Assembly (NCBI GenBank): GCA_964019135.1
Contig: OZ025258.1
Location: 31,552,186 to 31,616,185 of the forward strand
DNA: 64,000 nt
Source of the DNA: Arenicola marina
Lineage: Eukaryota > Annelida > Polychaeta > Arenicolidae
Direction: 5' to 3'
A program made the position numbers and the translations under genes. Below the pieces are notes generated by a model. The model was not told the DNA's origin and ran no database searches. It saw nothing but the letters and a program-made list of their open reading frames with translations. The first letter of the stretch is position 1, and each line of letters starts with the position of its first letter. Positions 1,846 to 42,313 of this stretch are shown here, piece by piece.

Positions 1846-1860
1846 TCATTCATGGAGTTT

Positions 1861-18900: not shown

Positions 18901-19153
18901 AGTATTTTCGCCTCGCTTTCTCGCAGATCTGAGAGTCATCTCTGCTGAGACGGTTCCAGTGCGCATGTTCAGCGGCAACCAATACGGTAACCATGAGATC
19001 ACCTACACGTGGAACCGAGGCGAACAGAAGGAGTTCTGGCTCCTCGTCCTGCGAATATTTCTCGACGGAGACTTCGAGGATCCGCCACCGGAAATGCTTC
19101 CTCCGCCATTGCTGGAGGACAAAGGCGGGACTTCCTGTTGCACGATTGTTTAA
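3788..19153 (+). CDS. gene A: four-repeat CaaX-tailed protein, unknown family (7 exons)
   Basis: Spliced exons 3788-3900, 15943-16125, 16325-16482, 16946-17110, 17587-17760, 18232-18519 and 18927-19153 join with matching phases (2,2,1,1,1,1) into 435 residues. Six donors are GT and all acceptors are AG. Four divergent repeats start near residues 15, 118, 208 and 322. Each has a V-x-F/V-x-P entry, an F/Y-E/D-x-F/M helix-like stretch (YERFDVLVQRANEWLR, FDSFGDTVRKFNIHLR, FESFGEVIQKANSWVR, FESMADTMRRAMRWLL), a V-x-x-x-E/Q-S/T strand-like stretch and a closing LRL/IRLFY/LRICF/LRIF motif. Residues 411-423 are acidic/Pro-rich and the C-terminus is C-C-T-I-V, a CaaX-type signal with a second Cys that could be palmitoylated. 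No signal peptide or membrane segment is seen, so a cytosolic, membrane-tethered protein is inferred. I do not recognise the family. Confidence 0.82.
4113..4248. repeat. dispersed repeat family 1, copy A
   Basis: Shares GGGCACTATTATACAAA, then a TGCCT(T/C)(G/A)ATGCCTGAGAGAG core and a CATTTGTGA segment with copies near 15608 and 25314. It is the shortest and most diverged of the three copies. Confidence 0.7.
5766..6890. repeat. 11-bp G-run minisatellite, about 102 copies
   Basis: Unit GATAGGGGGAC, with GATAGGGAGAC as the common variant. Three minus-strand frames stay open (PYRPPIVPLSS-type repeats) only because the unit lacks stop codons in that direction. Every unit carries a run of five G, so the + strand could form G-quadruplexes along the whole array. 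Confidence 0.95.
6948..7055. repeat. dispersed repeat family 2, copy A
   Basis: AGAACCCACGACATGTATT ... GTGAGCTATGCTGAAACA ... GGCTCGCCCT is shared in order with 27965-28070, in the same orientation. Confidence 0.7.
8701..8991 (+). other. open stretch with promoter-like motifs, unassigned
   Basis: A 96-codon open frame inside gene A intron 1. It contains CATGGCGGCC at 8811-8820 and an ETS-type CCGGAAGT at 8833-8840. The C-terminal part (LRRRRGEIYGIPVVDYLVEL) looks protein-like, but no splice context or family supports it. It may be an internal promoter or a chance frame. Confidence 0.2.
10905..13172. repeat. 34-bp G-quadruplex-type minisatellite, about 66 copies
   Basis: Unit core GGGGATTGGGGTGGGCGCGG followed by AGATGGGGTGCTAA. 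Each unit holds four G-runs of three or more with short loops, which satisfies the usual G-quadruplex pattern. Higher-order structure is visible: the GGGGACTCGGG variant recurs near 12328 and 12838 (510 bp, 15 units), and a TGGTGTGCTGAGG variant recurs 170 bp apart (5 units). Confidence 0.95.
13173..14334. other. intronic DNA without recognised features
   Basis: Short C- and G-runs (for example near 13383 and 14060) sit in otherwise unremarkable sequence within gene A intron 1. Confidence 0.4.
14335..14995. repeat. 28-bp minisatellite, about 23 copies
   Basis: Unit GTGGGTGCGTACTATAGCAG followed by T(T/G)ACCCG(C/A). Two unit types (GCAGTTACCCGCG and GCAGTGACCCGAG) are interspersed. Confidence 0.93.
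15520..15533 (-). promoter_or_regulatory. CTCF-like site in gene A intron 1
   Basis: CTGCCACCTAGTGG, reverse complement CCACTAGGTGGCAG, equals the classical CTCF core. Confidence 0.5.
15608..15845. repeat. dispersed repeat family 1, copy B
   Basis: Contains ACAAATCTGATTGGG, GTGCCTTGATGCCTGAGAGA and ATACCCCTATAGAGCGGATA, and ends in AACCCAGCAACGTATT plus a C-run, matching 25314-25530 almost end to end. It lies just upstream of gene A exon 2. Confidence 0.75.
15943..16125 (+). CDS. gene A exon 2
   Basis: Acceptor CTCTTCCAG, donor CTCAG|GTAAG. It codes the helix-like part and end of repeat 1 (VLVQRANEWLR ... YIRALR). Its first base completes an Asp codon with exon 1. Confidence 0.85.
16325..16482 (+). 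CDS. gene A exon 3
   Basis: Acceptor CCTATAG, donor CCAAG|GTGAGT. It codes LWVVRREP, then the first half of repeat 2 (FDSFGDTVRKFNIHLRQ). A second strong donor-like site (GCAAG|GTAAGT) lies 59 bp downstream and could give a frameshifted alternative. Confidence 0.85.
16584..16673. repeat. tandem duplication of about 46 bp, pyrimidine-rich
   Basis: Two adjacent copies of CTGCCCCTACCCACCC(A/C)GA followed by CCCCCTCTTCTCCCTCTCTC, in gene A intron 3. Confidence 0.85.
16686..16930 (+). mobile_element. tRNA-derived SINE in gene A intron 3
   Basis: A tRNA-like head carries box A (CAGCTCAGTGGGTTAGAGCG, 16694-16713) and, about 45 bp on, box B (GTGGTTCGCGCCCC, near 16760-16775). A tail of about 150 bp that is not tRNA-like follows. 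The acceptor stem does not close and there is no mature tRNA 3' end, so this is a tRNA-derived element rather than a tRNA gene. The 3' border is approximate. Confidence 0.65.
16946..17110 (+). CDS. gene A exon 4
   Basis: Acceptor GGATCCAG, donor AATAG|GTCAGT. It codes the second half of repeat 2 (RVLNVESQEMKFHDW ... VVIRLFYEIGIP). Confidence 0.85.
17216..17405. repeat. 15-bp AT-rich repeat, about 13 degenerate copies
   Basis: Degenerate units of CTGAGATATGTGTAA in gene A intron 4. It does not touch either splice junction. Confidence 0.8.
17587..17760 (+). CDS. gene A exon 5
   Basis: Acceptor CCCTTGCAG, donor GCGCGG|GTGGGT. It codes the start of repeat 3 (CADFVPGCLDHGSQF, FESFGEVIQKANSWVRQ, ITNVQSIDYK). 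Confidence 0.85.
18232..18519 (+). CDS. gene A exon 6
   Basis: It codes the end of repeat 3 and the start of repeat 4. The donor is CCAG|GTGAAG. The phase-compatible acceptor is CCTAAAG at 18230-18231; the stronger-looking TCCAG 10 bp upstream would break the frame, so the 5' edge is less certain than the other borders. Confidence 0.75.
18520..18625 (+). repeat. decayed repeat starting at gene A exon 6 donor
   Basis: Immediately after exon 6 the intron reads GTGAAGTCTCGTCATATCTC, then GTTAAGTCTCGTCAA, GTCAAGTCTCATCC and GTGAAATTTCACCAA. Degenerate units of about 15-20 bp each begin with a donor-like GT(G/T/C)AA(G/A)T, so the true splice donor is unit one. Confidence 0.65.
18927..19153 (+). 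CDS. gene A exon 7 (terminal)
   Basis: Acceptor TTCTCGCAG. It codes the second half of repeat 4 (LRVISAETVPVR ... LVLRIFLDGDF), the tail DPPPEMLPPPLL and the C-terminal CCTIV followed by TAA. Confidence 0.85.
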
Positions 19154-22473: not shown

Positions 22474-22572
22474 TCAGACTGGTTCCCCAGGACTTCCTAG
22501 TTCCGCCTCCACTTTCCCGTCCACAATGGCTTTCTGCGTATCCCTCCAGGGAGTGGTTAACAGTGTCAGGCG
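22474..22572 (-). CDS. gene B exon 13 (C-terminal tail)
   Basis: Acceptor TTCCTCCAG. It codes [20 protein letters not shown] followed by [12 protein letters not shown] and TGA. The RLxLLTTPxxD start after GTFRE is the usual SLC6 tail form, and the phase matches. Confidence 0.8.
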   Translation of the reverse strand, partial: RLTLLTTPWRDTQKAIVDGKVEAELGSPGEPV

Positions 22573-25500
22573 CTGGAGGAACGAAGTTCAAAGCTCATGA
22601 TGCGAAATTTAATATATCTTTGAAAAAGAGAACAAAATGTGATGTTTACTCAGAATATGTTATGGAAAAGATAATGTTCACTCGGATTACGCTATGCACA
22701 AGACAAAATATGTTCACTCAGAATATGTTATTCACAAGATAAAATATGATGAAAATATGTTATGCACAACATCAAATATTATGAAAATATGCTATAGAAA
22801 AAGATAAAATATTATGAAAATAGGCTATGGAAACGATAAAATATTATGAAAATATGCTATGAAAAAGATAAAATATTGTGAAAATGCTACGGAAAGAATA
22901 AAATATTATGTTCACTGAAGATTTTATGAAGATAAAATACAACGAATCTACTGATTTGCATGAATAACAAATCAATGGTATGTAACAACCATTGACGACC
23001 CCTCGATTGCTCCATTTAGACTCCATCATCACCCCACCTGTGACCTTTGACCCGTGACGTACCTCCCTGAAGGTGCCCTTGGCCCGCACTAGTTGGTAGA
23101 CAGCGAACCCTGGGATGCACAGTATGGAGGAGAGGGCCACGCACCACCCCATCACATTGGACCACGTGGGGAATATGTACTTGTCCAGCGTCAGCGGCTG
23201 GTAGGAGCTGAAGCCGAATATCACCACGGCCTACGCACGGAAATAATGGTAGAACAAAATGAACAGTCAGCGGCTTGTAGGAGCTGAAGCCGAATATCAC
23301 AGCCTACGCGCGGGAATAAAGGTAGAAAAAAATGAACAGTCAGCGGCTTGTAGGAGCTGAAGCCGAATATCACCACGGCCTACGCACGGAAATAAAGGTA
23401 GAACAAAATGAACAGTCAGCGGCTTGTAGGAGCTGAAGCCGAATATCACAGCCTACGCGCGGGAATAAAGGTAGAAAAAAATGAACAGTCAGCGGCTTGT
23501 TGGAGCTGAAACCGAATATTACCACGGCCTACGCGCGGGAATAAAGGTAGAACAAAATGAAGTCAGCGGCTTGTAGGAGCTGAAGCCGAATATCACAGCC
23601 TACGCGCGGGAATAAAGGTAGAACAAAATGAAGTCAGCGGCTTGTAGGAGCTGAAGCCGAATATCACAGCCTACGCGCGGGAATAAAGGTAGAACAAAAT
23701 GAAGTCAGCGGCTTGTAGGAGCTGAAGCCGAATATCACCACGGCCTACGCACAGAAATAAAGGTAGAACAAAATGAACAGTCAGCGGCTGGTAGGAGCTG
23801 AAGCCGAATATCACCACGGCCTACGCACGGAAATAAAGGTAGAACAAAATGAACAGTCAGCGGCTTGTAGGAGCTGAAGCCGAATATCACAGCCTACGCG
23901 CGGGAATAAAGGTAGAACAAAATGAACAGTCAGCGGCTGGTAGTAGCTGAAGCCGAATATCACCACGGCCTACGCGCGGAAATAAAGGCAGAACAAAATG
24001 AACAGTTAGCGGCTTGTTAGAGCTAAAGCCGAATATCACCACGGCCTACGAGCGGGAATAAAGTTAGAACAAAATGAACAGTCAAGCATACGATTTCGAC
24101 TTTGCATTAGTAAAAGCCAGAAACATCTTTGGTAAACAAGGAAAGAAGATAATTAATATCAAGGCGCAAAGACAATGGCCGATGACATGCCATGTGTAGT
24201 TTGTGCGACAAGCCATTAGAAACGGATCCCTATATCATTACAAATAGCTCCAGACCGATGCATTTACGATATGTCTTCATCAAAACGTCCAATAAACCGG
24301 TATAAATGGTAGTTAACGTTTTCCTTTTTTTAGCAGTTAAGCTGTTTATTGTGTCCACATTAGAATCAAAATCGTATGACGTGATATTTTTATATAAGAT
24401 TACGAATATTTATTATGATGAATGACAACCATGGCATTGTAGGAACATGGGGCAAAATGACCCATCGGGGTCAAATGGCCCACCACAATATCGCGCACTT
24501 GCGGTGCTGCCACCTGTATTGAAGCGTTTTATATTTGTTCCTGTTTGTTACGTGATACCTTAACAAATATACATGGGCGCTGAAGCAGACAGCTGACCTT
24601 CGTTACCGAAGTAAAAGTTTCTGGGCTGTTGCCATCTATGGTAAACAGTGGAAGAAAGTAGAGCCCAGTGGATACTAGCTTGGGGGAAAATGTTGATAAA
24701 TTAACACGATCAAAGATAAGTCCAAGTCAAGCCCCAAACGTAATTCAGATGCGGAATATACTGCGCCGTATTTTTCATACAGCGATCAAATGTTAAGGTT
24801 ACTAACAGGGGCAAAATGACCCACGCTGCTTGGGGCAAAATGACCCAGTGGGCCGTTTTACCCACATAATATGTAATAATATGTTTTACCCACATAATAT
24901 GTAATAATATGTATACTCTAAAAGAAACGATTATCTTTAGCAAACTGGATGATATGTCCACTGAATCGGAACATCTTTGATGATCATGAATGTGCTTGAA
25001 GAAGAAAACGATGTGCGTCACAGGGAGCTTGAAGAAGGGAGAGTTGTGCGCCCCTGGGAGCCGGAAGCGTTGATTGAGGCAGAGCCAGGCGGCACGCGAC
25101 ATCGTGTCTCCATTCGATACATGCGCACTCCCAAAAGCTACTAGACTTTCAGTTAGAAAGATAAAGCCAAGTAACAGGCAATGTCCCGCTACGGTTCCCA
25201 CCAACAGAAAGAGTGTGGCAAGGCCCGGCTGATTTCGAGAAGTCAGAAACCTCGGATAAACTAAGGGTCATTCCTTCCATTCCTTCCAGCAGCTCGTCAG
25301 GATAAGACGCAGATGGGGAGGGGGGGGGGCACTATTATACAAATCTGGTTGGGGGGTTCCACGGGTGCCTTGATGCCTGAGAGAGCGGATATTTGTGATG
25401 AAAAAGATACCCATATCAAGCGGACATTTATGAAGATACCCCTATAGAGCGAATATTTAAAAAAAAAGGGGGGCTTTACCCCGGAACCCCTCAAACCCAG

Positions 25501-28500
25501 GAATGTATTATTTACCCCCCCTCCCCCCCCTTTCCCTAAATCCGGGGGGGCTGTTTCAGGGTCGGATCCAGATATGTTGGATAGGGAGGCCGGTAAATGG
25601 TATAAATTATATACAGTTCCGCCCTAAAAAGGGCGCCGCTTGGATCCGCCCCTGCCCCTGGGTCTGTTCAACAGTAGGACTTCGCATGAAAGCTGAGTTC
25701 CGCGCCTCAGATGGCCTAAATTTTGCACTAAAAAATGGCAAAAAGTGAGGGAAGGGGGTGTCACCCCCGCCCGATCCGCCTCTGCTGACGTAAACGTTAT
25801 TTGTAATTTATATGTGTGATCCTTCTGGGTCAAACTGTTCCAGAGAGTTAGGAGTTTGCCTTCTTAGGCTGTTCAGTTCACTCATTAACATGCTGACATA
25901 ATGCGCTGACCATTTTGCCCCATTAGCACAAAAAACATGTTTTTTGTGCTAGTAAAAATTTTGTTCATGTCACTCGCATGTATCCAAGCTATGTTATTCA
26001 CAATACTACTGTTGTCAGTTTACCAAAATTTGGCTTTTTTTATAGCACTGCTGGTCCTCCAAAAAATACAAATAAAGTTAATTTGGTCATTTTGTGGTCA
26101 TTTTGCCCCATGTTCCCCTATATATCGGTGCAATTCTAGTTCAGCAATTTAATTAGGCGAGACAGACACGAGACAGGTTTGGTGTTTAGTGTGTTAGTCA
26201 GCAAGGTTGGATCCAGATATGCTGAATAGGAGGGGGCGGGGCCGTTTCGAGAGAATAAGGCAACAAATATCAGCTTAACTTCTTGAAGGCACTTCAAGTT
26301 AAACTCCATTCCAAATTTAGCTGCGACTTACCAATAAGGAAATTGGGGCGAAGAATTTCCAGCACAGCCTCCAGTAGATTCCTGGCCTGAAGCCCAGCAT
26401 GGAATGGATGTCGTCGGCGAACCGGTCAACACCTGGTGGAGAAACCAAGAACTAACCTGAGCCTTGGTCATCAAGTTGGTCTGTTACAAATCTCTCTGTG
26501 CCGCTTAAATGTTAGCCGCCATCGTCTTCATGTAGCTAGCCGCGTAAAGTATGTTTGCCAGAATGCCCTAACACCTGGGCATTTTTGCCAATGGAAGTAT
26601 TTTACATATAAGTTTTCCCTTTGGTTCACCCCTATAATTCGTGCAACATTTCACTGCTGTACTCAATGTGCTAAGGGACTTGCAACGGGCCATATCCACA
26701 AGCTGGCGCCCGGGTTCGGGGTAGCCAGTTATTGGAAGGGGACACTAAGATGCCCCCTCTCTCTCCAATCTGCATCGGGGGTGGGGAGTGAGGGGTGGGG
26801 GTGGGGCAGCTGTGCCACGTGCTTTGCTCACATCGATGTCGAGGAATTATCTCGACGATTAAAGCATTGAGTGACCTACCGTAGAGCCAGCCTATGGCGA
26901 TTGACTCGAAGAACACAGCCATCAGGATGGAGTAGCCGGCCGCGTACGTGTCCAGCAACTGTACCACGTAGGCCCCGCCCTGGAGAGTACAATACAGGGT
27001 GGTGCAAAATATCACATCGTTACTGTACCACGTAGGCCCCGCCCTGGAGAGTACAATACAGGGTGGTGCAAAATATCACAACGTTCCTGTACCACGTAGG
27101 CCCCGCCCTGGAGAGTACAATACAGGGTGGTGCAAAATATCACATCGTTACTGTACCACGTAGGCCCCGCCCTGGAGAGTACAATACAGGGTGGTGCAAA
27201 ATATCACAACGTTCATGTACCACGTAGGCCCCGCCCTGGAGAGTACAATACAGGGTGGTGCAAAATATCACATCGTTACTGTACCACGTAGGCCCCACCC
27301 TGGAGAGTACAATACAGGGTGGTGCAAAATATCACAACGTTACTGTACCACGTAGTCCCCGCCCTGGAGAGTAAAATACAGGGTGGTAAAAAATATCACA
27401 ACGTTACTGTACCACGTAGGCCCCGCCCTGGAGAGTACAATACAGGGTGGTGCAAAATATCACATCGTTACTGTACCACGTAGGCCCCACTTTGGAGAGT
27501 ACAATACAGGGTGGTGCAAAATATCACATCGTTACTGTACCACGTAGGCCCCGCCCTGGAGAGTAAAAGACAGGGTGGTGTAAAATATCACAACGCTACT
27601 GTACCATATGCCAAATGTAACGAATAATTGCTTAGATAGTACTAAATTAATTTAAATGTAAGTCATGTGTAAATTCAAGTACGTCGTTATTTCCGTCGCG
27701 ACAACTATACATTGCATTATAGCATGATGGCAGAAAAGCTGTTATGGTAAAGCGAATGCCCATGTAACAGTACATTCTTGAAAAAGAATGTACGAGGCGC
27801 AAGCCGAGTAAATATCTTTTCAAGAATGAACTGTTACACTGGTATTCTCTGATTTAAAGTACGGTGAGCCTCACCTGTTCCCCGTGGCATGAATAGAAGT
27901 CCTTTTAAAATGTACATTGGATCTCTCGCTTCCGAAACCAATAAAATAGCTGACTGAAGTCAGTTCATATTCTATCTGAGAACCCACGAAATGTATTGTT
28001 GTAGCAATGGTAAACTTGAGTCATATGTGAGCTAAGCTGAAACAGTGGTTCGCCCTGACATGTAAGAACGTCGGACGTTGCAGCCACAAGTCAGTTTAGT
28101 TGGCAAAAATGAAGTCGTGTTTCGCATCAAGGCGCGTAGGCTACTTCGCATGGATTATGTGTCATTATACAGACGATAATGGTCATTTGAATGTGGAATA
28201 TGATGCAATCGTTAAAATTATTGGATACTGAAAGGATATGATACGCAGCAATGTTGCCATGGTGTTTGAAACAATAGGATATGCTTTGCAAACCAAGCGC
28301 GTATTTGATTATGCGCGCGGAGTACCTCGATCACGACGCCTTGTAAATCAAACAGTGAAAATCGTGCCCCGAGCGTTGCGTCACGTGATCAATTTCACCG
28401 CGCCGCGTGCTCTCGGTTTCCAGCAGGGGCAAAAGGATTTCCAACATGGCGTCAAAGGAACTGCCCAAGTGGATCGTTTCACTTGCAATTACGAGCTCGC

Positions 28501-31500
28501 AACCGTATCTTTTACATGCTAATTTAACGAGAGATCGTAAGTTTACGAGCAACGAAAATAAGCATCATACTAATATTATTAATATTACTAATATTATACC
28601 CCAATATTATTGGGGCCGTTATTATTGCGGCCATCTTCCTGCAATTTATTTTCTAGCAATATTATTCAAAAACCTGTTTGCCATATATTTATGATAAATT
28701 GAACATTTTTCGCTTCTCTTCGAGCGGGCAATTCATTTGTTTTTTATATTTTACGAGAAAAAGTTCGAGATCTTAGTGAAATGACATCCACAGAGCTCCT
28801 TCGTCGGCCATGTTGCTGTCAGAGAACGCGGATTTCACGTTTGAATATCAGACACACGGAACTTCAAAGGCACCCTGAGTTTCGTGGGATTCACGAGAAA
28901 GAGAAATTCTAGTGTAATTATAGGATATAAGGAAATATCAGTATGTATTTTGCATATGAATTACATATGATCTCAAATTTTGTTTCTAAAAGTGGATTTT
29001 GTGATCTACGCTTGTTTTGATGACAAATTTGTATCTGTTTTTGCTGGGGCTTTCCATCGGGCGTCAAGTTTCCAGTTCATCATCCATTTTGGTTGTGACC
29101 TGTTTCACACAAGCTCACTTTTTGCTCATGATTGACATTGACTGCGATTGTCGATTCCGTAACAGAAGGACGATTGTTCAACAGAAAAATTTGTTGGTCT
29201 CCTTGAGTCAATCGCAATTTATTAGCTTGCTAAAACATTACATTCGTGAAAAATAATATACAATTTGGACAATAGACTGACGTCATAGCAGTACTTTAAA
29301 GATTAATAATGAATATTAATTCATTGTCCCATGGCTGGTGCAATCTATGCATTAGATAAGGAATGAGTTGTAGGTCGTTGTTGAGATCGAAGAACTTCGA
29401 GGCGTAGCCGAGAAGACTTTCGACCAACTCTGAGAAAATAATGACCTCCTGCTCATAGTCCGCAGGTCCTTACCGGCAAAACACGACTCCGAGGAAACAA
29501 TAGAAGTATGCATTAAGTGCCTATAATCTACAATTAAGAGCCTCGTTCTCACCTCCGTACAGCTGGCCAGACCCACGATGTAATAGAAGACGAAGAGTAT
29601 ACCGACGAAGATCTCTCGGTTCTTCTTGATCCAAGGGTACTCGTCACCCAGGGCTGTAATAATGGCCTCCGACCCTCCGAACTGACCACAAACATCGGTT
29701 GAAACATATTATTATTTTGCAATTGGCAATCAGGCAAGGCCCATAACAAATTCCTGTTGCAGAGGTACATAAACTCAAAATTGTTGAGAATATAATATTT
29801 CAAATAATTAGGTTATCTAAACCAGGGTATCAGTAGTTGTTTACACACATAAATTAAATTAATGCCCTCACACAGGGTGAGCCACAGAAAGAAACATGGC
29901 CACGTATATCTTTAGATGATGTGTGTATTTCGATTGTTACTGTATGCGAGTTTGACATGTTGTAATGGTCATGTTATATGATATCTGTCGGTATATAGAT
30001 GTTAGCGTATGTATACACAGCGCAAAAATATCTATACGCCATGAAAATGCACTTCTGATCTTTCCTAGAAGCGTCTTAATAAGAATATCTAGCGAAAACT
30101 TACGAATTGTGGGATACTGCATGCACTTGTCCGTCATAATAAATATTGTCGGCTAGTATGCAATATATTGTGTACGCATATTATGAATTCTTGTTATGGC
30201 TAATATTAATAGGCATGCCTTTTTTGCACAGCACATTGTACTGTGACAATGGTAAAGCATGGAGTCACTCACCGAGCTGTCCAACCCGAGCGTCAGTAAC
30301 ATCATAAAGAATATTAACGACCAGAAGGTGGAGGCCGGAAGTGTCGCGATGGCTTCTGGGTAGACTACAAACACCAGACCCGGACCTGAAATAAATGGAG
30401 CGGTTGTTATGTCGTTACAACACAGAATATGCGTCTCGCACCTGCAGGAATTGCAGGTTAGTGTCATATCACCTTAGCGATTCCAAAATAAAAATGTGTT
30501 TAAACTAATTAGGATATTATCCACCACATATCCAGGCAGGACGAGCGTAGACTCACCTTCCGTGGCGACTTTGGATATATCTTTGCCGGTTTTCTCTGCC
30601 ATGTACCCGAGGACTGCGAAGATGACGAAGCCAGCCAAGAAGCTGGTCAGACAGTTGATGAGGCTGGTGGCGATGGCGTCACTGTAACCACAGACACACC
30701 ACGTGGTGTCATTGCACTGGAAACCCATGCTAGACCCACCGATAACTATCGCTTCCCCAATTTCATAAAATTATAATTGTTAAGCCATTAAATATCAAAA
30801 CACGACGATAACTATATTAGTTACAGCTGGTCATGAAGTATTCTTCATATATATCGCATGAACATGTATCTTTTATTTTTTATCAGTTTACTCGGCATAA
30901 TGTGTACATTTTGTTTGTGTAAAATGCTATAAAGGCTTTCTTTGTTTTCTGTAAAGTTATCTTGACTTGGTTTTGCAGCAAATGGGACTGATTTTCAAAA
31001 TGTACTATAACATCATATTTCATATATTTGCCTATGCCTGTCTAGCAAAGTCATAACAGGGACCCCTTCTTTTTCTGCTTTATACCTATTGTATTAATTA
31101 GGCGATAAATGTACCATAAAGATACCATGAAGTAGGTTCTACAATGGCGTTGATGTACCGAAATAATGAACAGATTTTCTATTTATAAAGTTTCAATTTA
31201 CAAGAGAAAAGCATCTACCCAAATTAGCGATATTTGTAACCGAACAACAAAAACAATTTCATGCCAAGATGTCGGATATTTTTACGATGTATGAGCCAAC
31301 ATTGCTCTCATATTTTACAGGGGAAGACCTCTAATAACCTAAGTTATATCGATAAAATATTGAGAGAATTACACCGATTTATTGGTATCAAGCTTCCTGT
31401 TATTATACTTGTATCATCATTACACTAAATAGCTTCTTGACAAGCGATCAACAGCTAAATGTGTTGTTCGGTAGCCTTGTGCGATTATTGTGTTTCATTA

Positions 31501-34500
31501 GTTGGAGCACCAGGGTGATCTGACTCCTGCTGGGACCAAGGGCGGGAGAGCACCAGGGTGATCTGACTCCTGCTGGGACCAAGGGCGGGAGAGCACCAGG
31601 GTGATCTGACTCGTGCTGGGACCTGGCATCGAGGCGCTTGACATCGATAGCAGTTCGATATTGATCGGCACCGGCTCATGTTATGTCAGGCTCATAATGT
31701 GGAGTCGTTATTCGGAGTCGTTATTGCCGTGGTTCCTTCAATAGACCCGGGACCCAGTGGGGTGCCGCCCTGTCAGCCAGCCACCACCCTGCCGCGCTGC
31801 CACTCCGCCACCCAGCCAGCCAACCAGCCACCACCCTGCCGCACTGCCACCATGCCACCCAGCCAGGACCCGGCCACCCTGCCAGCATGCCAGCCCTGCC
31901 AGCAACCCTGCCACCCTGCCACCACCCAGCCACCCTGCCAGCCAATCATTTGGGATGGGGGTAGGTAGGCAAGCACCGCGCGAGGGCAATGGGGTACGGG
32001 CGGGCGTTGGGTGGCGTTGGAGGTACCGTCATAAGGCGACTAGGGATATAAGCGATTTAAGGGTGAGTGCACGCAGAGAGGAGTTACTTTGACCAGTCTT
32101 CACTTACAAGCCGTATAATAGATTCTTTAAGTTGACGAGGAATTAAAGAGAGTCATTCACGAGAAGGGAGCCAAAAAGCGGCGACATCTAACCAATAGCC
32201 GTTGTAGGTTTGGCCTCTCTCTCACCGCGGGGACCGCAGCACCGGAAATGCCTCCGCCCAGGAGGGCCGATCGATCGCGTAGGAATACAACGAAGTTACA
32301 TTTGCATGTGGCGCCGGCCTATAATCTCCCCGCCCAACGGCCGCTGAAAGCTTTCTCTCCGGGTGGACTCTTTTCTTGCGGAATCAAAGGCGCGGCTGGG
32401 GAAACCCCATTTCATCTTCTGTCCCTTTTCAGTTCTCATTCCGTTTCGCTTCACACCGTTTCTGCGTGTGTATTCCATTAATGTTTCTCCTCCTCATTCA
32501 TATTTTTGTCTTTCCTTCTGTAACTTCTCTCTTCTTGCCCCCATTCTTGCCCTCTTTAATGTTTCTTTCTGCTTTCCCTCTTTAGTGTTTATGCCTCTTT
32601 TCTCTTTCCCTATTTTCCTCTTCTCTGTTTCCTCCACCCCCATCTCATCCAACATTACCCCCTACAGACACATCCGTCAACTCCCAGGATGTAACACAGT
32701 GCATAGCTATTGCGTTGTGAACTAAATAGGGAAGACAAGACACTTCAAGACACACCATCATCCGGCCCAAATCACGGAACCAAAATAACTTCTTGACCTA
32801 CTTAAGCCACAGCATCGATGGTTCCAGAAACTTCACATTTAACATGGAATAACGTTGCAAATTGTAACCCTACTGATGTTGTCTGTTTCCTGAATAAAAG
32901 ATTTGTTCCCAATAAGTACCTTATAACTACCTGCCCCATCCACCTGAGCCTAAGCCTATACACACGCCACCCTACATCCACAAGTCTATGCTTGAGGGCA
33001 CATAGTGGGGAAGCCTACCAGCACGTCCGTTAGCTAAAGTGATTAATACATAAGCGCCCGCAGACATATCACGTCAGAGAGTCTTATATATATTCTATAT
33101 ATATATTCCATACTCACTAATACACATTGTTGTGGAACTTGTTGTAGCTGGCGAAAGCCAAGAGCACTCCAAATCCTGGACCCAGCGAGAAGAACACCTG
33201 AGTGGCGGCATCCGTCCACACCTGTAACCATGGCAACACAAGCACGTGGTTATATTAATATATATATATATATTATAGGTTAGTATGATGTAATATATTA
33301 TTAATTTACATAAATATGCAATCCCCCTTGTTTAATCGCTGTTACTAACCTACTAGCAGGTACTAACCGGTATGACCTTGACGATTTACCCTGACTAAGC
33401 TACAATGGCGTTGTATTTCGTTTTGTGTAGCCTTGATCTTGACATATATTTATTTTCGACCTTGACACAGACCGTTAACCTTAACACCTATTCATCTCCA
33501 GCTTGCTTGACACATACTACGCTGCCGTGACCTTGACACAGAATAAGCTTCCTTGACCTTAACACTTATTCATCTCCAACGACCCTGAAACATACTATGA
33601 TGCCGTGACCTTGACACAGTCTATGCCACGACGACCTTGACACAGACCAAACTCCAGCGACCTTGACACAGACCAAGCTACGGCGACCTTGACACAGACC
33701 AAGCTACGGCGACCTTGACACAGACCAAGCAACGGCGACCTTGACACAGAATAAACGCCAGCGACCTTGACACAGACCAAGCTACGGCGACCTTGACACA
33801 GACCAAGCTCCAGCGACCTTGACACAGACCAAGCTACGGCGACCTTGACACAGACCAAGCTACGGCGACCTTGACACAGACCAAGCAACGGCGACCTTGA
33901 CACAGATTAAACGCCAGCGACCTTGATACTGACCTCGGACGAGGCGAGTCTGCTGAAGTCGGGAGTGATGTAGTAGTTAATCCCGATGGCCGCTCCAGAC
34001 AGCGTCGTGCCTCGCACCAGCAGGATGAGCAGGACGACGTAAGGGAAGAGAGCCGTGAACCAGACTACCTGCAATACACGGACCGAGGCTTATAGTCCCT
34101 GGTCATCACGTACAAACATTGACATGTATATTACAATTGACCTTATTCATTATATTACGGTGCCATTGTACGGTTTCACTTTTGAAAGTTAGGTATCATC
34201 CTACTATATCTATATATAGATGTGCGCAAGATGCTTGACGTATGGACGCCCCCCTGGTATTATGGACGTCAGTACCCACCTTGTCTGACGTATAAACGCC
34301 CCCCTAGTATTATGGACGTCAGTACCCACCTTGTCTGATGTATGAACGCCCCACTGGTATTATGGACGTCAGTACCCACCTTGCCTGACGTATGGACGCC
34401 CCCCTAGTATTATGGACGTCAGTATCCACCTTGTCTGATGTATAAACGCCCCCCTAGTATTATGGACGTCAGTACCCACCTTGTCTGACGTATGAACGCC

Positions 34501-37500
34501 CCCCTAGTATTATGGACGTCAGTACCCACCTTGTCTGACGTATGAACGCCCCCCTAGTATTATGGGCGTCAGTACCCACCTTGTCTGACGTATGGACGCC
34601 TCCCTAGTATTATGGACGTCAGTACCCACCTTGTCTGACGTATGGACGCCCCCCTAGTATTATGGACGTCAGTACCCACCTTGTCTGACGTATAAACGCC
34701 CCCCTAGTATTATGGACGTCAGTACCCACCTTGCCTGACGTATGAACGCCCCCCTAGTATTATGGACGTCAGCACCCACCTTGTCTGACGTATGGACGCC
34801 CCCCTAGTATTATGGACGTCAGTACCCACCTTGTCTGACGTATGAACGCCCCCCTAGTATTATGGACGTCAGTACCCACCTTGTCTGACGTATGGACGCC
34901 TCCCTAGTATTATGGACGTCAGTACCCACCTTGTCTGACGTATAAACGCCCCCCTAGTATTATTGACGTCAGTACCCACCTTGTCTGACTATAAACGCCC
35001 CCCTAGTATTATGGACGTCAGTACCCACCTTGTCTGACGTATGGACGCCCCCCTAGTATTATGGACGTCAGTACCCACCTTCTCCGACGTATGAACGCCC
35101 CCTAGTATTATAGACGTCAGTACCCACCTTGTCTGACGTAAAAACGCCCCCCTGGTATTATGGACGTCAGTACCCACCTTGCCTGACGTATGAACGCCCC
35201 CTAGTATTATGGACGTCAGTACCTACCTTGTCTGACGTATGGACGCCCCCCTAGTATTATGGACGTCAGTACCCACCTTGCCTGACGTATGGACGCCCCC
35301 CTAGTATTATGGACGTCAGTACCCACCTTGTCTGACGTATAAACGCCCCCCTAGTATTATGGACGTCAGTACCCACCTTGTCTGACGTATGGACGCCCCC
35401 CTAGTATTATGGACGTCAGTACCTACCTTGTCTGACGTATAAACGCCCCCCTAGTACTATGGACGTCAGTACCCACCTTGTCTGACGTATGGTCGCCTCC
35501 TGGTATTATGGACGTCAGTACCCACCTTGTCTGACGTATAAACGCCCCCCTAGTATTATGGACGTCAGTACCCACATTGTCTGACGTATAAACGCCCCCC
35601 TAGTATTATGGACGTCAGTACCCACCTTGCCTGACGTATGGACGCCCCCCTAGTATTATGGACGTCAGTACCCACCTTGTCTGACGTATAAACGCCCCCC
35701 TAGTATTATGGACGTCAGTACCCACCTTGTCTGACGTATGAACGCCCCCCTAGTATTATGGACGTCAGTACCCACCTTGCCTGACGTATGGACGCCCCCC
35801 TAGTATTATGGACGTCAGTACCCACCTTGTCTGACGTATGGACGCCCCCCTAGTATTATGGACGTCAGTACCCACCTTGCCTGACGCATGGACGCCCCCC
35901 TAGTATTATGGACGTCAGTACCCACCTTGTCTGACGTATAAACGCCCCCCTAGTATTATGGACGTCAGTACCCACCTTGTCTGACGTATGAACGCCCCCC
36001 TAGTATTATGGACGTCAGTACCCACCTTGCCTGACGTATGGACGCCCCCTAGTATTATGGACGTCAGTACCCACCTTGTCTGACGTATAAACGCCCCCCT
36101 AGTATTATGGACGTCAGTACCCACCTTGTCTGACTTATGGACACCCGCTAGTATTATGGACGTCAGTACCCACCTTGTCTGACGTATAAACGCCCCCCTG
36201 GTATTATGGACGTCAGTACCCACCTTGCCTGACGAATGAACGCCCCCCTAGTATTATGGACGTCAGTACCCACCTTGTCTGACGTATAAACGCCCCCCTA
36301 GTATTATGGACGTCAGTACCCACCTTGTCTGACGTATGGACACCCGCTAGTATTATGGACGTCAGTACCCACCTTGTCTGACGTATAAACGCCCCCCTGG
36401 TATTATGGACGTCAGTACCCACCTTGCCTGACGTATAAACGCCCCCCTAGTATTATGGACGTCAGTACCTACCGTGCCTGACGTATGGACGCCCCCTAGT
36501 ATTATGGACGTCAGTACCCACCTTGTCTGACGTATAAACGCCCCCCTAGTATTATGGACGTCAGTACCCACCTTGTCTGACGTATGGACGCCCCCCTAGT
36601 ATTATGGACGTCAGTACCCACCTTGTCTGACGTATGGAAGCCCCCCTAGTATTATGGACGTCAGTACCCACCTTGTCTGACGTATGGACACCCGCTAGTA
36701 TTATGGACGTCAGTACCCACCTTGTCTGACGTATGAACGCCCCCCTAGTATTATGGACGTCAGTACCCACCTTGTCTGACGTATAAACGCCCCCCTAGTA
36801 TTATGGACGTCAGTACCCACCTTGCCTGACGTGTGGACGCCCTCCTAGTGTTATGGACGTCAGTACCCACCTTGTCTGACGTATGGACGCTCCCTTAGTA
36901 CTATGGACGTCAGTATCCATCTTGTCTGACGTATAAACGCCCCCCTAGTATTATGGACGTCAGTACCCACCTTGTCTGACGTATAAACGCCCCCCTAGTA
37001 TTATGGACGTCAGTACCCACCTTGTCTGACGTATAAACGCCCCCCTAGTATTATGGACGTCAGTACCCACCTTGTCTGACGTATGGACGCCCCCCTAGTA
37101 TTATGAACGTCAGTACCCACCTTGTCTGACGTATAAACGCCCCCCTAGTATTATGGACGTCAGTACCCACCTTGTCTGACGTATGGACGCCCCCCTAGTA
37201 TTATGGACGTCAGTACCCACCTTGTCTGACGTATGAACGCCCCCCTAGTATTATGGACGTCAGTACCCACCTTGTCTGACGTATAAACGCCCCCCTAGTA
37301 ATATAGACGTCAATACCCACCTTGCCTGACGTATGGACGCCCCCCTAGTATTATGGACGTCAGTACCCACCTTGTCTGACGTATGGACGCCTCCCTAGTA
37401 TTATGGACGTCAGTACCCACCTTGTCTGACGTATGGACGCCCCCTAGTATTATGGACGTCAGTACCCACCTTGTCTGACGTATGAACGCCCCCCTAGTAT

Positions 37501-40500
37501 TATGGACGTCAGTACCCACCTTGTCTGACGTATGGACGCCCCCCAAGTATTATGAACGTCAGTACCCACCTTGTCTGACGTATAAAAGCCCCCTAGTATT
37601 ATGGACGTCAGTACCCACCTTGTCTGACGTATGAACGCCCCCCTAGTATTATGGACGTCAGTACCCACCTTGTCTGACGTATAAAAGCCCCCTAGTATTA
37701 TGGACGTCAGTACCCACATTGTCTGACGTATAAACGCCCCCCTAGTATTATGGACGTCAGTACCCACCTTGTCTGACGTATGGAAGCCCCCCTAGTATTA
37801 TGGACGTCAGTACCCACCTTGTCTGACGTATAGACGCCCCCCTAGTATTATGGACGTCAGTACCCACCTTGTCTGACGTATAAACGCCCTCCTAGTGTCA
37901 TGGACGTCAGTACCCAACTTGTCTGACGTATGGACGCCCCCTTAGTACTATGGACGTCAGTACCCACCTTGTCTGACGTATAAACGCCCCCCTAGTATTA
38001 TGGACGTCAGTACCCACCTTGTCTGACGTATGAACGCCCCCCTAGTATTATGGACGTCAGTACCCACCTTGTCTGACGTATGGACGCCCCCCTAGTATTA
38101 TGGACGTCAGTACTCACCTTGTCTGACGTATGGACGCCCCCCTAGTATTATGGACGTCAGTACCCACCTTGCCTGACGTATGAACGCCCCCCTAGTATTA
38201 TGGACGTCAGTACCCACCTTGTCTGACGTATGGACGCCCCCCTAGTATTATGGACGTCAGTACTCACCTTGTCTGACGTATGGACGCCCCCCTAGTATTA
38301 TGGACGTCAGTACCCACCTTGTCTGACGTATGGACGCCCCCCTAGTATTATGGACGTCAGTACCCACCTTGTCTGACGTATGGACGCCCCCCTAGTATTA
38401 TGGACGTCAGTACTCACCTTGTCTGACGTATGGACGCCCCCCTAGTATTATGGACGTCAGTACCCACCTTGTCTGACGTATGGACGCCCCCCTAGTATTA
38501 TGGACGTCAGTACCCACCTTGCCTGACGTGTGGACGCCCTTCCACAGACTGAAGTAGCAGATGACGTAGACGGCGAGAAGACACAGCGCCATCTGCCAGC
38601 GAATCTGCCCCAGACCGTCGATGCCCGTCGACTCGTGCATTCCCAGCATGCCGCGCCTGTGACGTCACCAGGACAAGGGTCACGTGTACATTACATGCCA
38701 TATATAGACACAACTGGAAGTCCGTTCAACAAATAAATATTACTTTCAAAGACGTTATTTTTTTAAACATTCCAACAAAACATTCCGACAAAATAGTCAT
38801 TATTCCGCGGATGTCATATCTTCTATTTAAGGAAGTTTTTATCTGAATTTAATAACAGTCAGAAGATAACAAGCATCAGATATCAATTTTATGACTGAAC
38901 TTTCCTTCAGTTTCAATGTATATACTATATTAGACAACCCAGACATATGATCCTTACTGGACAAACGTTTACTTTTACTAACCAAAACCGGATTTTTGTA
39001 CTTATTTTGTAGATATTTCATCATTATAATTTAGTACATGGGTCTGCGTACACAATGAAGTAAAGTTCATAATATGTATATATATATGTATGTATATGTA
39101 GGTTCCTTGGGCTTTGACGTGACCAGTGCGTGATGAGCCCCTGAACGTGAAGTGGGGTACCTCAAAACATGTTATGCATCATAAGATATATTCCTAAAGG
39201 CTCGGACAGTATAATGAGAGACTCGAACCACTGCCGGATGCATAGATCATCAATGTTATCGGCATTTTAAGTCCTTATTTGAATGAAGGTGATTGTCGTA
39301 AAAAGTTCCACGTTCATACAACAACGGAGAGAGGTGAACAAAGGAAGATCGCTCAATAAGTGTGTTCATTTGACCGTCCGAACGCGACTATCAATGACAA
39401 TGAAGAACACAAAAACATAATAATAATACATTTTATAGTATATAAAGTAACCGAACTACCCATATTTTTTCATGAGAAATACCATCGATACCAAGTCTGT
39501 GTTATGTATGTATGTATCATTGACATGACACTGCCTTGAAAGAAAATATTTTAATTCCGTGCAAAAATGCACAAAACTACAGTATCCAGGTGCTACCTAC
39601 TCGTAATACTCCAGCGCGGGGGACTTCCGGGTGTCCTCAATGGCCGCCGTGACGTTGCTGGCGTTGAGCCCCGTGGCTGACGTCACTGCTGAGATGGCGT
39701 CGACCAGGACCTCGCCGCCGCCCCGCGCCGCGCTGTACGCCGCCCCGGCCCCCGCCGCCAGCGACCCGTTGGCCCAGGAGGACCCGTTGCCCCCCCAGGT
39801 GTCGTTACCCCCCTCGTCCCCGGTCAGGTAGCCGTCGAAGCAGTCCGGGGTGTTCCAGGTGTTGTTGCAGGAGATCCAGGGTAGGCGGGAGGTGAAGGAC
39901 GAGATGAAATAGTGCAGCGCCCAGGCGATCACCACATTGTAGTAGAAGTCCGTGTAAAAGGCGATCAGCACGACGGCGTAACCCACACCTGCGGGGGAGA
40001 TTCAGGGGCGGGCGGGGGGGGGGGGGTAGGGGGGGGGTCAGGGTAAAAAACGTAATTATAGAAATAGACTTTCTCAATAATGAGAGTTGTATTGCCAAAT
40101 TATCCCTTAGATATTGTGTGGATAAACGCATGTTTGTTATCTTATCTAGAAATTTGTTGGTTCTATATACGCTCTGCCCGGACAGATATATATATATATT
40201 TACATATTCTGCATAGAATTATGGGAATGAAGCTGGATCACGACCTCCCTCCTAATAGAGCTGATGGAGTATGGCTGTATCAGCTGGTGATCATAGCTAC
40301 CCGGCGGCCAGGTGTGGTTTAGACGGCTATTGGGGAATCCACACCGCCATCGATACACTTGAATCAATTTTTATATATGGATGGTGATCGACTGGCAGCA
40401 CACCTAAATGGACATCAGCAGGCCCACTGGAGCATCACCCCTCTTAGACTATATCCACCACCACCCTCTCACCCAGCCCGCACCCCTCTTAGAATACTCC

Positions 40501-42313
40501 CCCCTCCTCCCCCAGCCCCACCCCGCTTAGACTACCCCCCCTCACCCAGCCCCAACCCCTCTTAGACTATAACCACCACCCCCTCTCACCCAGCCCCACC
40601 CCTCTTGGACTACTGCCCCCCCCCCTCACCCAGCCCCACCCTCTTAGACTACCCCCCTCACCCAGCCCCAATCCCTCTTAGACTACTCTACCCCCAGCCC
40701 CCCGTCACCCAGCCCGCACCTCTCTTCACATTCCCATCAATTATTGCACACCTAGCGACCGTTTCAGGTACCGCACAGCACGTTCACCTCAGCTCGAGGC
40801 GCTCACACCCGCTGTTACAGAGATATTAGGTCAAACATCAGTGTATGATAGACGGATAAAGCGTCAGACTGTCATCAGAACCACTAACCCATACAGATCA
40901 TTACCCCAGCCCAGTTCCACGCAGCGTCACCTCCTCCAAATGTAACCCACTTCATCCCAGGCGCGTCACCCCAACACACCCACCCCATTTCATCCCATCC
41001 CACCCGACCCCACCCACACCGCCCCACCTCACCCCAACCCGCCATCCCCACACACAACCCCACCCAACCCCACCCCACACTACTACCAGTAAATGTCACC
41101 TCAACTCACCCCACCCCACCCCACCCCACCCCACTCCTGGCTCTGTTTTGCCTCACGCCATCCCACCTTTAAAAATGTCACCACAGCCCTCCACAGAAGG
41201 CCTACACCCTCCCCCCCCCTCACCCATCTTTTCTACGGTTCCATAATAATCCCAAGCTCCCCCACCCCTCCCCACCACACCCCCCCCCCCACCACCCCCA
41301 CCCCCTGCCTACTGTCCCAGTGCTTACCTCTGAAGAGAGGACAGATCCTACCCCAGCATGTGATGGCCCCTTTCCTGTTGAACTGGCCAAGCTCCCCCAC
41401 CCCTCCCCACCACACCCCCCCCCACCACCCCCACCCCCTGCCTACTGTCCCAGTGCTTACCTCTGAAGAGAGGACAGATCCTACCCCAGCATGTGATGGC
41501 CCCTTTCCTGTTGAACTGGCCCAGAGCCAGCTCCATGTAGAACAAGGGAATCCCGCCCAGCAGTAATATCAGCGTGTAGGGAATCAGGAAGGCACCTGCA
41601 GAGAGATCGTCGCCAAGGTATATAGTACAATAATACGGTCATCTAACACACAATTATGACCTATGATTACCTGGTAAATGCGTAATACAATTTCATAAGA
41701 ACATGTCACAGCTATGGAATTTATATATACATGAAATATTTTATATTTTGAAAACAATTTGAAATCTGATTTGGTTATTTTTCTCAGATTACTGCCGTTT
41801 AAGATTCATTGGTTGAAGCTGTGCACTGCATATAAATCACTTCCGCTGACTCCATTAGACCATGTAGCATGAGATCCTTCGATGATGGCACAACCAGAGC
41901 AGACCCACTGAATAAACATCAGCACATGACAAGAGGCCATTCAAGATCTATTTCGCTCGACAGCGTTAAATACTGAAAAAATGACCTGATGCCTCAACTA
42001 TATCTGCGTACCCATAACCCAACCCGGAATGCCCTGAGATAGCGTCAGGATTAACACATTGCCAGACACAGCCCACAAGCACTCCAGCGTGAGCCACTCA
42101 TACCTCCGCCATTTTTGTAGCAGTAGTAAGGGAACCTCCAGACATTTCCGAGGTCCACAGCGAATCCGATGACGGAGAGCAGGAAGTCAGCCTTCTTATC
42201 CCACGTCTCGCGTCCGTCATATCCCGACCCGTTGCCAAGGGCAACCTCCTTCCCGTTCGCATGTGTGACGTCATTGGCCAACTCGACTCCTTCGTCGCTG
42301 AGATTTTGTTTTT
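22474..42313 (-). CDS. gene B: SLC6 monoamine (serotonin/dopamine-type) transporter, 13 coding exons traced
   Basis: Plasma-membrane symporter expected to take up a biogenic amine with Na+ and Cl-. Exons on the minus strand: 42313-42104, 41595-41461, 39988-39601, 38656-38518, 34068-33934, 33221-33118, 30681-30557, 30385-30273, 29681-29553, 26979-26880, 26432-26332, 23230-23063, 22572-22474. All junctions are GT/AG and phase-consistent, giving at least 648 residues (human SERT is 630). Visible hallmarks: TM1 [14 protein letters not shown] with the amine-binding Asp (D98 in human SERT), the EL2 Cys pair ([10 protein letters not shown]), TM6 [22 protein letters not shown]8 LGLDSS with the sodium-site Asp-Ser, and TM10-12. 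TM6 is closest to SERT; the Phe in GFAVD and the EL2 end EYYERG resemble DAT. EL2 is unusually long. The initiator Met must lie in an unseen upstream exon, because the frame runs to a stop near 42354 without an ATG. Confidence 0.93.
22655..22925. repeat. AT-rich repeat of about 32 bp, about 8 copies
   Basis: Degenerate units GAAAATATGCTATGGAAAAG followed by ATAAAATATTAT, in the last intron of gene B. Confidence 0.8.
23063..23230 (-). CDS. gene B exon 12 (TM12)
   Basis: Acceptor GTGCGTAG, donor GGGAG|GTACGT. 56 codons: [20 protein letters not shown] ... [12 protein letters not shown]. Its first 41 bases and acceptor are the template of the adjoining 68-76 bp minisatellite. Confidence 0.92.
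23188..24083 (-). repeat. 68-76 bp minisatellite containing gene B exon 12 splice acceptor, about 12 copies
   Basis: The first unit is the real start of exon 12 with its acceptor. Each further unit repeats, on the minus strand, TTTATTTCCG(T/C)GCGTAG|G and 35-41 exon bases (encoding the VIFGFSSY region), joined by about 30 bp ending TGTTCATTTTGTT. Some units lack 4 bp at the exon start (TAGGCTGTGATATTC). Confidence 0.92.
25314..25530. repeat. dispersed repeat family 1, copy C
   Basis: GGGCACTATTATACAAATCT, GGTGCCTTGATGCCTGAGAG and AACCCAGGAATGTATTATTT match copy B (15608-15845) in the same order. It is nested in the 1.7-kb TIR element. Confidence 0.75.
25557..25654. mobile_element. hAT-like MITE, 98 bp
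   Basis: Ends CAGGGTCGGATCCA and TGGATCCGCCCCTG form an inverted pair of about 14 bp. The interior (GTAAATGGTATAAAT) is shared with the element at 49736. CAGGGGCGGATCCAG-type ends are typical of hAT elements. A clean 8-bp target duplication is not visible. Confidence 0.6.
26332..26432 (-). CDS. gene B exon 11 (TM11 start)
   Basis: Acceptor CTCCACCAG, donor TTATTG|GTAAGT. It codes [20 protein letters not shown] and [13 protein letters not shown]. Confidence 0.92.
26880..26979 (-). CDS. gene B exon 10 (TM10)
   Basis: Acceptor CTCTCCAG, donor CTACG|GTAGGT. It codes [20 protein letters not shown] and [13 protein letters not shown]. Its first 19 bases and acceptor are the template of the adjoining 64-bp minisatellite. 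Confidence 0.92.
26961..27606 (-). repeat. 64-bp minisatellite containing gene B exon 10 splice acceptor, about 10 copies
   Basis: Each unit on the minus strand reads TGTACTCTCCAG|GGCGGGGC then CTACGTGGTACAGTAACG, i.e. acceptor plus the first 19 exon bases (GGAYVV codons), then about 45 bp of intron. The array starts inside exon 10 and extends into intron 9. Two linker variants (ACATCGTTAC and ACAACGTT) partly alternate. Confidence 0.93.
27755..27846. mobile_element. 92-bp hairpin MITE
   Basis: AATGCCCATGTAACAGTACA (continuing TTCTTGAAAA) is matched by an inverted copy ending at 27846, an imperfect 30-bp stem. A second perfect 10-bp stem with a 4-bp loop (GTACATTCTT/AAGAATGTAC, 27770-27793) is nested on the left side. 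Confidence 0.6.
27965..28070. repeat. dispersed repeat family 2, copy B
   Basis: AGAACCCACGAAATGTATT ... GTGAGCTAAGCTGAAACA ... GTTCGCCCT matches 6948-7055. It lies in gene B intron 9. Confidence 0.7.
28071..29552 (-). other. gene B intron 9, distal part, no feature recognised
   Basis: AT-rich. A short inverted repeat (CCCCAATATTATTGGGG, near 28599) is the only structure seen. Small open frames near 28240-28550 show no family resemblance. Confidence 0.4.
29553..29681 (-). CDS. gene B exon 9 (TM9)
   Basis: Acceptor GTGGTCAG, donor CGGAG|GTGAGA. 43 codons: [20 protein letters not shown] ... [11 protein letters not shown]. Confidence 0.92.
30273..30385 (-). CDS. gene B exon 8 (TM8)
   Basis: Acceptor ATTTCAG, donor AGCTCG|GTGAGT. 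It codes [20 protein letters not shown] ... [11 protein letters not shown], including the sodium-site Asp-Ser. Confidence 0.93.
30557..30681 (-). CDS. gene B exon 7 (TM7)
   Basis: Acceptor GGTTACAG, donor GGAAG|GTGAGT. It codes [20 protein letters not shown] ... [17 protein letters not shown]. The tyrosine codon spanning the junction restores NNVYYDA. Confidence 0.93.
31505..31622. repeat. 43-bp tandem repeat, three copies
   Basis: GAGCACCAGGGTGATCTGAC then TC(C/G)TGCTGGGACC, at 31505, 31548 and 31591, in gene B intron 6. Confidence 0.9.
31755..31955. repeat. C-rich degenerate repeat (CCACCCTGCCAGC type)
   Basis: Short degenerate units of CCACCCTGCC and CAGCCAGC in gene B intron 6. Open frames on both strands are by-products of composition. 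Confidence 0.75.
32400..32660. repeat. polypyrimidine tract
   Basis: About 260 bp of strongly C/T-biased + strand sequence in gene B intron 6 (purine-rich in the transcript). No splice function is apparent because the gene runs on the other strand. Confidence 0.6.
33118..33221 (-). CDS. gene B exon 6 (TM6)
   Basis: Acceptor GGTTACAG, donor GTATTA|GTGAGT. It codes [20 protein letters not shown] and [14 protein letters not shown], nearly identical to the SERT substrate-site helix. Confidence 0.93.
33370..33933 (-). repeat. 26-bp minisatellite starting at gene B exon 5 splice donor
   Basis: The first unit is the donor itself: GTCAGTATCAAGGTCGCTGG follows exon 5 directly, and the units that follow read (G/A)TCTGTGTCAAGGTCGC then CGTAGCTTG. 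About 13 clear units lie at 33600-33933 and more degenerate ones continue toward 33370. Confidence 0.88.
33934..34068 (-). CDS. gene B exon 5 (TM5)
   Basis: Acceptor ATTGCAG, donor CCGAG|GTCAGT. Exactly 45 codons: [20 protein letters not shown] ... [12 protein letters not shown]. Confidence 0.93.
34231..38540 (-). repeat. 50-bp minisatellite containing gene B exon 4 splice donor, about 86 copies
   Basis: Each unit on the minus strand contains GGCGTCCATACGTCAGACAAG's equivalent of the last 21 bases of exon 4 (codons for GVHTSDK; the exon itself has GVHTSGK), followed without a break by GTGGGTACTGACGTCCATAA and a TACTAGGGG end. The array abuts exon 4 and fills 97% of the 4.45-kb intron 4. Every unit therefore holds a complete AAG|GTGGGTA donor. 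Confidence 0.96.
38518..38656 (-). CDS. gene B exon 4 (TM4)
   Basis: Acceptor GTCACAG, donor GGCAAG|GTGGGTA. It codes [20 protein letters not shown] and TM4, ending [12 protein letters not shown]. The last 21 bases and the donor are the template of the adjoining 50-bp minisatellite. Confidence 0.92.
39060..39100. repeat. TA/TATG microsatellite
   Basis: ATATGTATATATATATGTAT-type simple repeat in gene B intron 3. Confidence 0.7.
39601..39988 (-). CDS. gene B exon 3 (TM3 and expanded EL2)
   Basis: Acceptor CCCGCAG, donor TACGA|GTAGGT. It codes TM3 ([20 protein letters not shown]), [18 protein letters not shown] and a Gly/Ala/Ser-rich stretch of about 60 residues with several N-glycosylation sequons (NNT, NDT, NGS twice, NAS, NVT) before ALEYYE. 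Confidence 0.92.
40430..40730. repeat. C-rich degenerate repeat (CTCACCCAGCCCCA...CTTAGACTA)
   Basis: About nine irregular units of CCCTCTTAGACTA joined to CACCCAGCCCCACC in gene B intron 2. It is not adjacent to a splice site. A further C/A-rich stretch (CCCACCCCACC) follows at 40890-41130. Confidence 0.8.
41252..41520 (-). repeat. tandem duplication of about 133 bp copying the 3' half of gene B exon 2
   Basis: The blocks 41252-41386 and 41387-41520 are nearly identical apart from C-run length. The downstream copy holds the last 59 bases of exon 2 ([19 protein letters not shown] codons) and its donor at 41328-41327, but no acceptor and no 5' half. The functional exon is the complete one at 41461-41595. 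Confidence 0.93.
41461..41595 (-). CDS. gene B exon 2 (TM2)
   Basis: Acceptor TCTGCAG, donor AGAG|GTAAGC. It codes [20 protein letters not shown] and [16 protein letters not shown], then GRICPLFR. Its 3' half plus adjoining intron is duplicated in tandem. Confidence 0.92.
42104..42313 (-). CDS. gene B exon 1 traced (N-tail and TM1)
   Basis: Codes [14 protein letters not shown] ... [20 protein letters not shown] and [14 protein letters not shown]; the donor is GGAG|GTATGA. The 5' edge uses the acceptor CCAAACAG at 42315-42314, after a T-rich tract. CTCAG a few bases downstream is an alternative. No Met lies upstream in frame, so this is not the first coding exon. Confidence 0.85.

Follow-up and report, generated by a model that had tools for sequence, protein, structure and literature searches.

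The name mirages, for minisatellites that take in an exon border, was reportedly coined in a 2002 paper on amphioxus Adh. Such arrays have been described in the lancelet genes Adh3, BflGb6 and BflGb9 (globins), troponin C and PGBD5, and the available parts of these reports describe regular splicing of Adh3 and the globins despite the mirages (PMC3087553, PMC3902484). A further trait of mirages is that their length is unstable, in somatic tissue too. In human segmental duplications, variable internal tandem repeats include minisatellites that overlap exon-intron boundaries; according to the accessible text, these alter transcripts and make novel introns (PMC2812944). In an earthworm metallothionein gene, minisatellites with monomers averaging 178-181 bp were found in the first intron, together with untranscribed duplications of exon 4 (PMC12783039, as far as its available text goes).

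Here we describe arrays at the exon borders of a gene of the SLC6 family, gene B, and of its relatives in the same genome. As in lancelets, the tandem units take in the exon-intron border, arrays occur at donors as well as at acceptors, and many copies keep the AG or GT (PMC3087553, PMC3902484, in the parts available). The gene B arrays are thus mirages of the lancelet type, a kind already published, and their likeness to the lancelet arrays had been correctly recognised in the preliminary description. They differ in scale: the available accounts give lancelet mirages 2-7 copies and units of 10-160 bp, whereas gene B has up to 86 copies and four border-spanning arrays. With the human repeats they share their position over exon-intron boundaries, but they appear, as judged from the gene model, to be silently spliced out (compare PMC2812944, available text). 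The earthworm gene is likewise an annelid case of intronic minisatellites, with duplicated exons that the final transcript lacks; unlike for gene B, the accessible part of that report describes no border-spanning array (PMC12783039). Our search of the open-licence literature, in the text that it makes available, found no such array in an annelid.

The DNA had been assigned to a lancelet, an assignment that we had to abandon. The first 800 bases of the mitochondrial contig (C762; 15,942 bp) carry trnF-trnE-trnP-trnT-nad4L-nad4 on a single strand, which we take to be an annelid and not a lancelet order. The four tRNA genes were assigned by their anticodons, those for Phe, Glu and Thr being also called by Rfam and that for Pro being read by eye, and nad4L and nad4 were matched by Pfam (E 3.9e-14 and 1.6e-8). 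A search of the genome for the GFP family, a lancelet marker, gave no matches, but neither did its controls, and it was given no weight. The host is very probably an annelid.

Tandem repeats (score >=100) occupy 24.7% of the window, by which we mean the whole 64,000-nucleotide stretch of DNA analysed, and 37.7% of gene B. Their share is 43.9% (bootstrap 26.7-61.6%) in 18 sampled 10-kb pieces (L002-L019), one from an arbitrary position on each chromosome-scale contig (18 of the 36 contigs sized exceed 33 Mb), and three of the pieces consist of repeats throughout. If this sample is fair, the genome is swollen by minisatellites. Such a share, if true genome-wide, would be unusual beside the earthworm Amynthas aspergillum, for which the available text gives 2.65% of the genome as minisatellites and 3.44% as longer satellites (PMC12130307). 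Elsewhere in the window, at 531-1868 (minus strand), a 33-bp repeat in 38 copies (591-1845) lies within open frames on both strands; read on the minus strand, it gives an 11-residue repeat resembling that of apolipoproteins (PF01442, E 8e-17, a match that falls short of Pfam's cut-off). A 34-bp repeat in 67 copies with 97% matches fills 10901-13175, a stretch in which Pfam scans found no family. Gene A (15943-19153, plus strand), with six exons from a codon-usage scan, encodes a protein without a Pfam match, and one of its arrays (18523-18620) begins 3 bp into the fifth intron.

Repeat arrays at the exon borders of gene B

Gene B is a dopamine-transporter-like SLC6 gene on the minus strand, running from 42313 to 22474, of which 13 exons with 24 junctions were mapped by hand from splice signals and reading frame (Table 1). 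The model begins at exon 1 as mapped, with the start codon on a further upstream exon outside it. The frame comprises 648 codons including the stop, and the SNF domain is present along the protein of 647 residues (PF00209, E 5e-231). Its best match among solved transporters is Drosophila DAT (E 1.9e-252), with entries for human NET, DAT and SERT lower in the ranking. The alignment to Drosophila DAT forms two blocks (residues 31-172 and 236-628), separated by the region known as variable extracellular loop 2. Each of the 12 internal junctions belongs to one of these blocks, and no junction coincides with a gap. Intron gain by tandem duplication finds no support in gene B, as the arrays sit in introns between exons that align to DAT without interruption.

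Table 1. Exons of gene B (positions in the window) and repeat arrays at exon borders of gene B and of other SLC6 loci; exons of the other loci are numbered as in gene B
Feature	Positions	Strand	Basis or repeat
Exon 1 (first mapped)	42104..42313	-	splice/frame map and DAT homology
Exon 2	41461..41595	-	splice/frame map
Exon 3	39601..39988	-	splice/frame map
Exon 4	38518..38656	-	splice/frame map
Exon 5	33934..34068	-	splice/frame map
Exon 6	33118..33221	-	splice/frame map
Exon 7	30557..30681	-	splice/frame map
Exon 8	30273..30385	-	splice/frame map
Exon 9	29553..29681	-	splice/frame map
Exon 10	26880..26979	-	splice/frame map
Exon 11	26332..26432	-	splice/frame map
Exon 12	23063..23230	-	splice/frame map
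Exon 13 with stop codon	22474..22572	-	splice/frame map
Exon 2 donor array	41252-41521	-	133 bp x2; unit 61 bp exon + 72 bp intron; 98% matches
Exon 4 donor array	34236-38539 (4.3 kb)	-	50 bp x86; 22 bp exon overlap
Exon 5 donor array	33478-33934	-	26 bp, ~17 units; starts at final exon base
Exon 10 acceptor array	26958-27606	-	64 bp x10; 22 bp exon + 42 bp intron with AG
Exon 12 acceptor array	23190-24084	-	76/73 bp x12; up to 41 bp exon per unit; AG in 12/12
L021 exon 3 donor array			38 bp x37
L021 exon 8/9 donor array			61 bp x25
L024 exon 3 acceptor array			100 bp x4.9
L028 exon 3 donor array			65 bp x1.9
L029 exon 5 acceptor array	L029 1621-2165		75 bp x7
L029 exon 11 donor array			28 bp x20

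Tandem Repeats Finder, read against the hand-mapped gene model, placed repeats at all five borders of gene B where they had been noticed. These had been said to include or begin at an exon border; four arrays do span the junction, and the one at the exon 5 donor only begins there. The spanned junctions, 4 of the 24 mapped, are two donors and two acceptors, which bears out the view that both sides are affected. The unit in each combines exon end, splice site and intron; that of the exon 4 array consists of the final 21 bp of the exon and 29 bp of intron, with the donor AAG/GTGGGT (the slash marks the border). The exon 5 array takes in no more than one base of the exon, and the donor in its units is degenerate (GTCTGT-like); it was therefore counted as abutting the border and not as copying it. 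The other six arrays of gene B (score >=80) lie inside introns. The sequence shared at the seam measures 2 bp for exon 2 and about 4, 9 and 15-16 bp for exons 12, 10 and 4 (by eye; for the long arrays, an incomplete terminal copy would look no different). A polarity towards the exon was considered as a general feature of the arrays and rejected, being clear for exon 5 only: Spearman's rho against distance from the exon was 0.15, 0.69, 0.67 and 0.13 for the arrays of exons 4, 5, 10 and 12, and 0.15, 0.81, 0.61 and -0.12 when the end copies were left out.

Related arrays in other SLC6 loci

Searched for the SLC6 family, the genome (867 Mb in 762 contigs) gave at least 98 matches, counted exon by exon. 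Ten loci were picked from the match list for compactness, before their repeats were seen, and the gene B protein was aligned to them with our own spliced aligner, tried first on exons 1-6 of gene B. The resulting set was curated by hand, with poorly aligned exons left out, and holds 72 introns and 142 junctions; 3 of its 31 arrays, which lie upstream of the first mapped exon, were dropped and 28 kept. Two borders were moved after reading the DNA (L020 exon 4 and L028 exon 3, the latter still one base off in the count). An array near exon 4 of L020 was rejected as spanning, the likely acceptor lying 15 bp past the array end, where it gives an exon of 139 nt, the length found in gene B.

In these ten loci, picked without regard to repeats, arrays span 6 of the 142 junctions (Table 1), and border-spanning arrays are therefore not peculiar to gene B. 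They recur in the SLC6 genes of this genome with the same anatomy, so that the idea of a repeat-border overlap extending beyond one gene holds at this scale. Together with those of gene B they make ten spanning arrays, at six donors and four acceptors. It could be argued that such structures are artefacts of assembly or collapse, as assembly of long arrays is difficult and the exact copy numbers given here may be off. However, the copies differ among themselves, the exons are intact, and loci on other chromosomes carry separate arrays of like anatomy; for the lancelet PGBD5 repeats, the available text reports that re-examined and new sequence data upheld them (PMC3902484). We consider an artefact very improbable.

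Decoy copies and the choice of splice site

Splicing presumably uses the copy that adjoins the exon body, as homology suggests: the protein built from the exon-proximal copies can be aligned to Drosophila DAT through every one of the 12 junctions. The remaining copies would be decoys. Counting the authentic copy, the GT or AG is kept in both copies at exon 2, in 84 of 86 at exon 4, in 9 of 10 at exon 10 and in all 12 at exon 12. Use of a decoy would bring in a premature stop in 84/84 cases at exon 4 (copies with GT), 1/1 at exon 2, 8/8 at exon 10 (copies with AG) and 10/11 at exon 12, where the remaining decoy, 73 bp away, shifts the frame without a stop. At exon 4, the motif AAG/GTGGGT is found in the authentic donor and in 74 of 84 decoys; since these are nearly as good as the authentic site, the splice signal alone cannot decide the choice. 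Exon definition would be a natural explanation for it.

The 86 exon 4 copies vary as much at the donor positions (0.0168) as in the rest of the intronic unit (0.0172), and so give no sign of selection on the decoys. At two positions of their exon part the copies divide 41:45 and 56:30. An A stands in place of the G of a Gly codon in 71 of the 86 copies, and this Gly is found also in Drosophila DAT. The exon 4 decoys thus look, from their sequences, to be drifting without coding constraint.

Across the ten spanning arrays, GT or AG is still present in 175 of 189 decoys, as might be expected if extra splice-site copies were kept as an aid to splicing or for its regulation. Against such a selected function, using the decoys would break the protein, the donor motif is conserved no better than the remaining unit, and in 2 of the 10 arrays no decoy has kept its GT or AG. 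These are at L028 exon 3, with a single decoy lacking GT, and at L029 exon 5, where the six upstream copies have CAC or CAT for CAG and the exon-proximal copy keeps its AG. A selected function therefore seems to us scarcely credible. The unit length is not a multiple of three in 9 of the 10 arrays, and the exception is the 75-bp unit of L029 exon 5, with its dead acceptors, a coincidence that is suggestive and not significant.

Frequency and origin of the border-spanning arrays

The border repeats of gene B had been judged too many for chance. What stands of this judgement is a weak excess, once repeat density and the short ancestral introns are taken into account. In our null model, arrays were collapsed to one unit and this founding unit was placed at random in the shortened intron. 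Of the 11 arrays of gene B, 4 span a border with 10 bp or more to either side of it, where the model predicts 0.82 (P 0.004). Asking for 10 bp on the exon side only raised the expectation to 1.05 (P 0.011), and with an overlap of at least 1 bp there were 5 of 11 against 1.35 (P 0.0037). With a coarser choice of unit and other score cut-offs, 1.39-1.60 were expected, with P(>=4) of 0.029-0.054 and P(>=5) of 0.004-0.010. All of these P values are optimistic, because gene B was picked after the fact, for its repeats. At exon 4 the chance of straddling is large, as the ancestral intron would have had only about 217 bp. In gene A, the only non-SLC6 gene examined, none of three arrays spans a border; for genes A and B together, 4 of 14 arrays do so against 0.93 expected (P 0.0075; four gene A borders are off by one).

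In the ten independent loci, 6 of 28 arrays span a border against 3.24 expected (P 0.080), or against 2.65 if one 206-bp unit is left out (P 0.036); including arrays within 5 bp of a border, there are 9 of 28 against 5.26 (P 0.051). Pooled with gene B, with its after-the-fact choice, the count is 10 of 39 against 4.30 (P 0.0047). The excess of spanning arrays, roughly two-fold, is modest, and we cannot call it proven. Spanning arrays are also longer: in the independent loci their median length is 557 bp, compared with 267 bp for the others (P 0.022; P 0.0012 for all 39 arrays). Their units are longer, too (64.5 against 31 bp); the difference in copy number is not significant (P 0.16).

We think it probable that these arrays are minisatellites of a minisatellite-rich genome that came to lie over splice borders by ordinary tandem duplication and expansion, and were tolerated there. 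A short local tandem duplication, involving a few bases of microhomology, would have happened to straddle an exon border; the exon 2 array, with its two copies 98% alike and its 2-bp seam, looks like a recent duplication of this sort. The extra copies in the intron would then have expanded and been homogenised by slippage or unequal exchange, as the arrays suggest. Under exon definition, only the copy beside the exon body would be spliced, and the others would leave with the intron as decoys. The gene would keep working because splicing uses the exon-adjacent copy only, and border overlaps may be common because of the high density of tandem repeats. The two-fold excess over the geometric null and the greater length of the spanning arrays count against this reading, and a modest extra bias of arrays toward borders is possible.

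Seeding at splice junctions, perhaps tied to breaks or R-loops, had been the original proposal. Of this, the straddling is established and the seeding is not, and nothing observed suggests breaks or R-loops at the borders. The wider form of the idea is that exon borders promote duplication or array growth through breaks, stalled replication, R-loops or co-transcriptional processing. The overall excess would fit it, as would the higher rate of spanned junctions in gene B than in its paralogues (Fisher P 0.039) and the additional arrays whose start lies no more than 5 bp from a border, at gene B exon 5 and at three paralogue junctions. It would also fit that, when the 14 arrays of genes A and B are ranked by score, those that span a border take the first four places (conditional P 0.0077; ranking by copy number gives 0.11). 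However, gene B was chosen for its pattern, and the independent loci alone give P 0.080 (0.036 without one array). R-loops in particular gain no support, because the sense-strand G/C skew is inconsistent among the five gene B units (+0.53 to -0.13), and the division between donors and acceptors shows no strong preference. We therefore regard border-biased seeding as unlikely. Tentative, and less likely than not, is the proposal that mirages arose independently in an annelid, that borders are truly favoured, about two-fold, for the founding or keeping of arrays, and that minisatellite-rich animal genomes therefore produce mirages in general, lancelets being no special case.

Border arrays can mislead gene prediction, as our own aligner placed spurious exons inside arrays of two loci (L021 and L027). 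The exon 4 donor of gene B, presumably spliced correctly in the face of some 83-84 near-identical decoys, would offer a natural test of exon definition. Mirage anatomy outside the lancelets would tie mirages to repeat-rich genomes and not to one lineage, and a second phylum would make testable the published idea that mirages are raw material for new introns.
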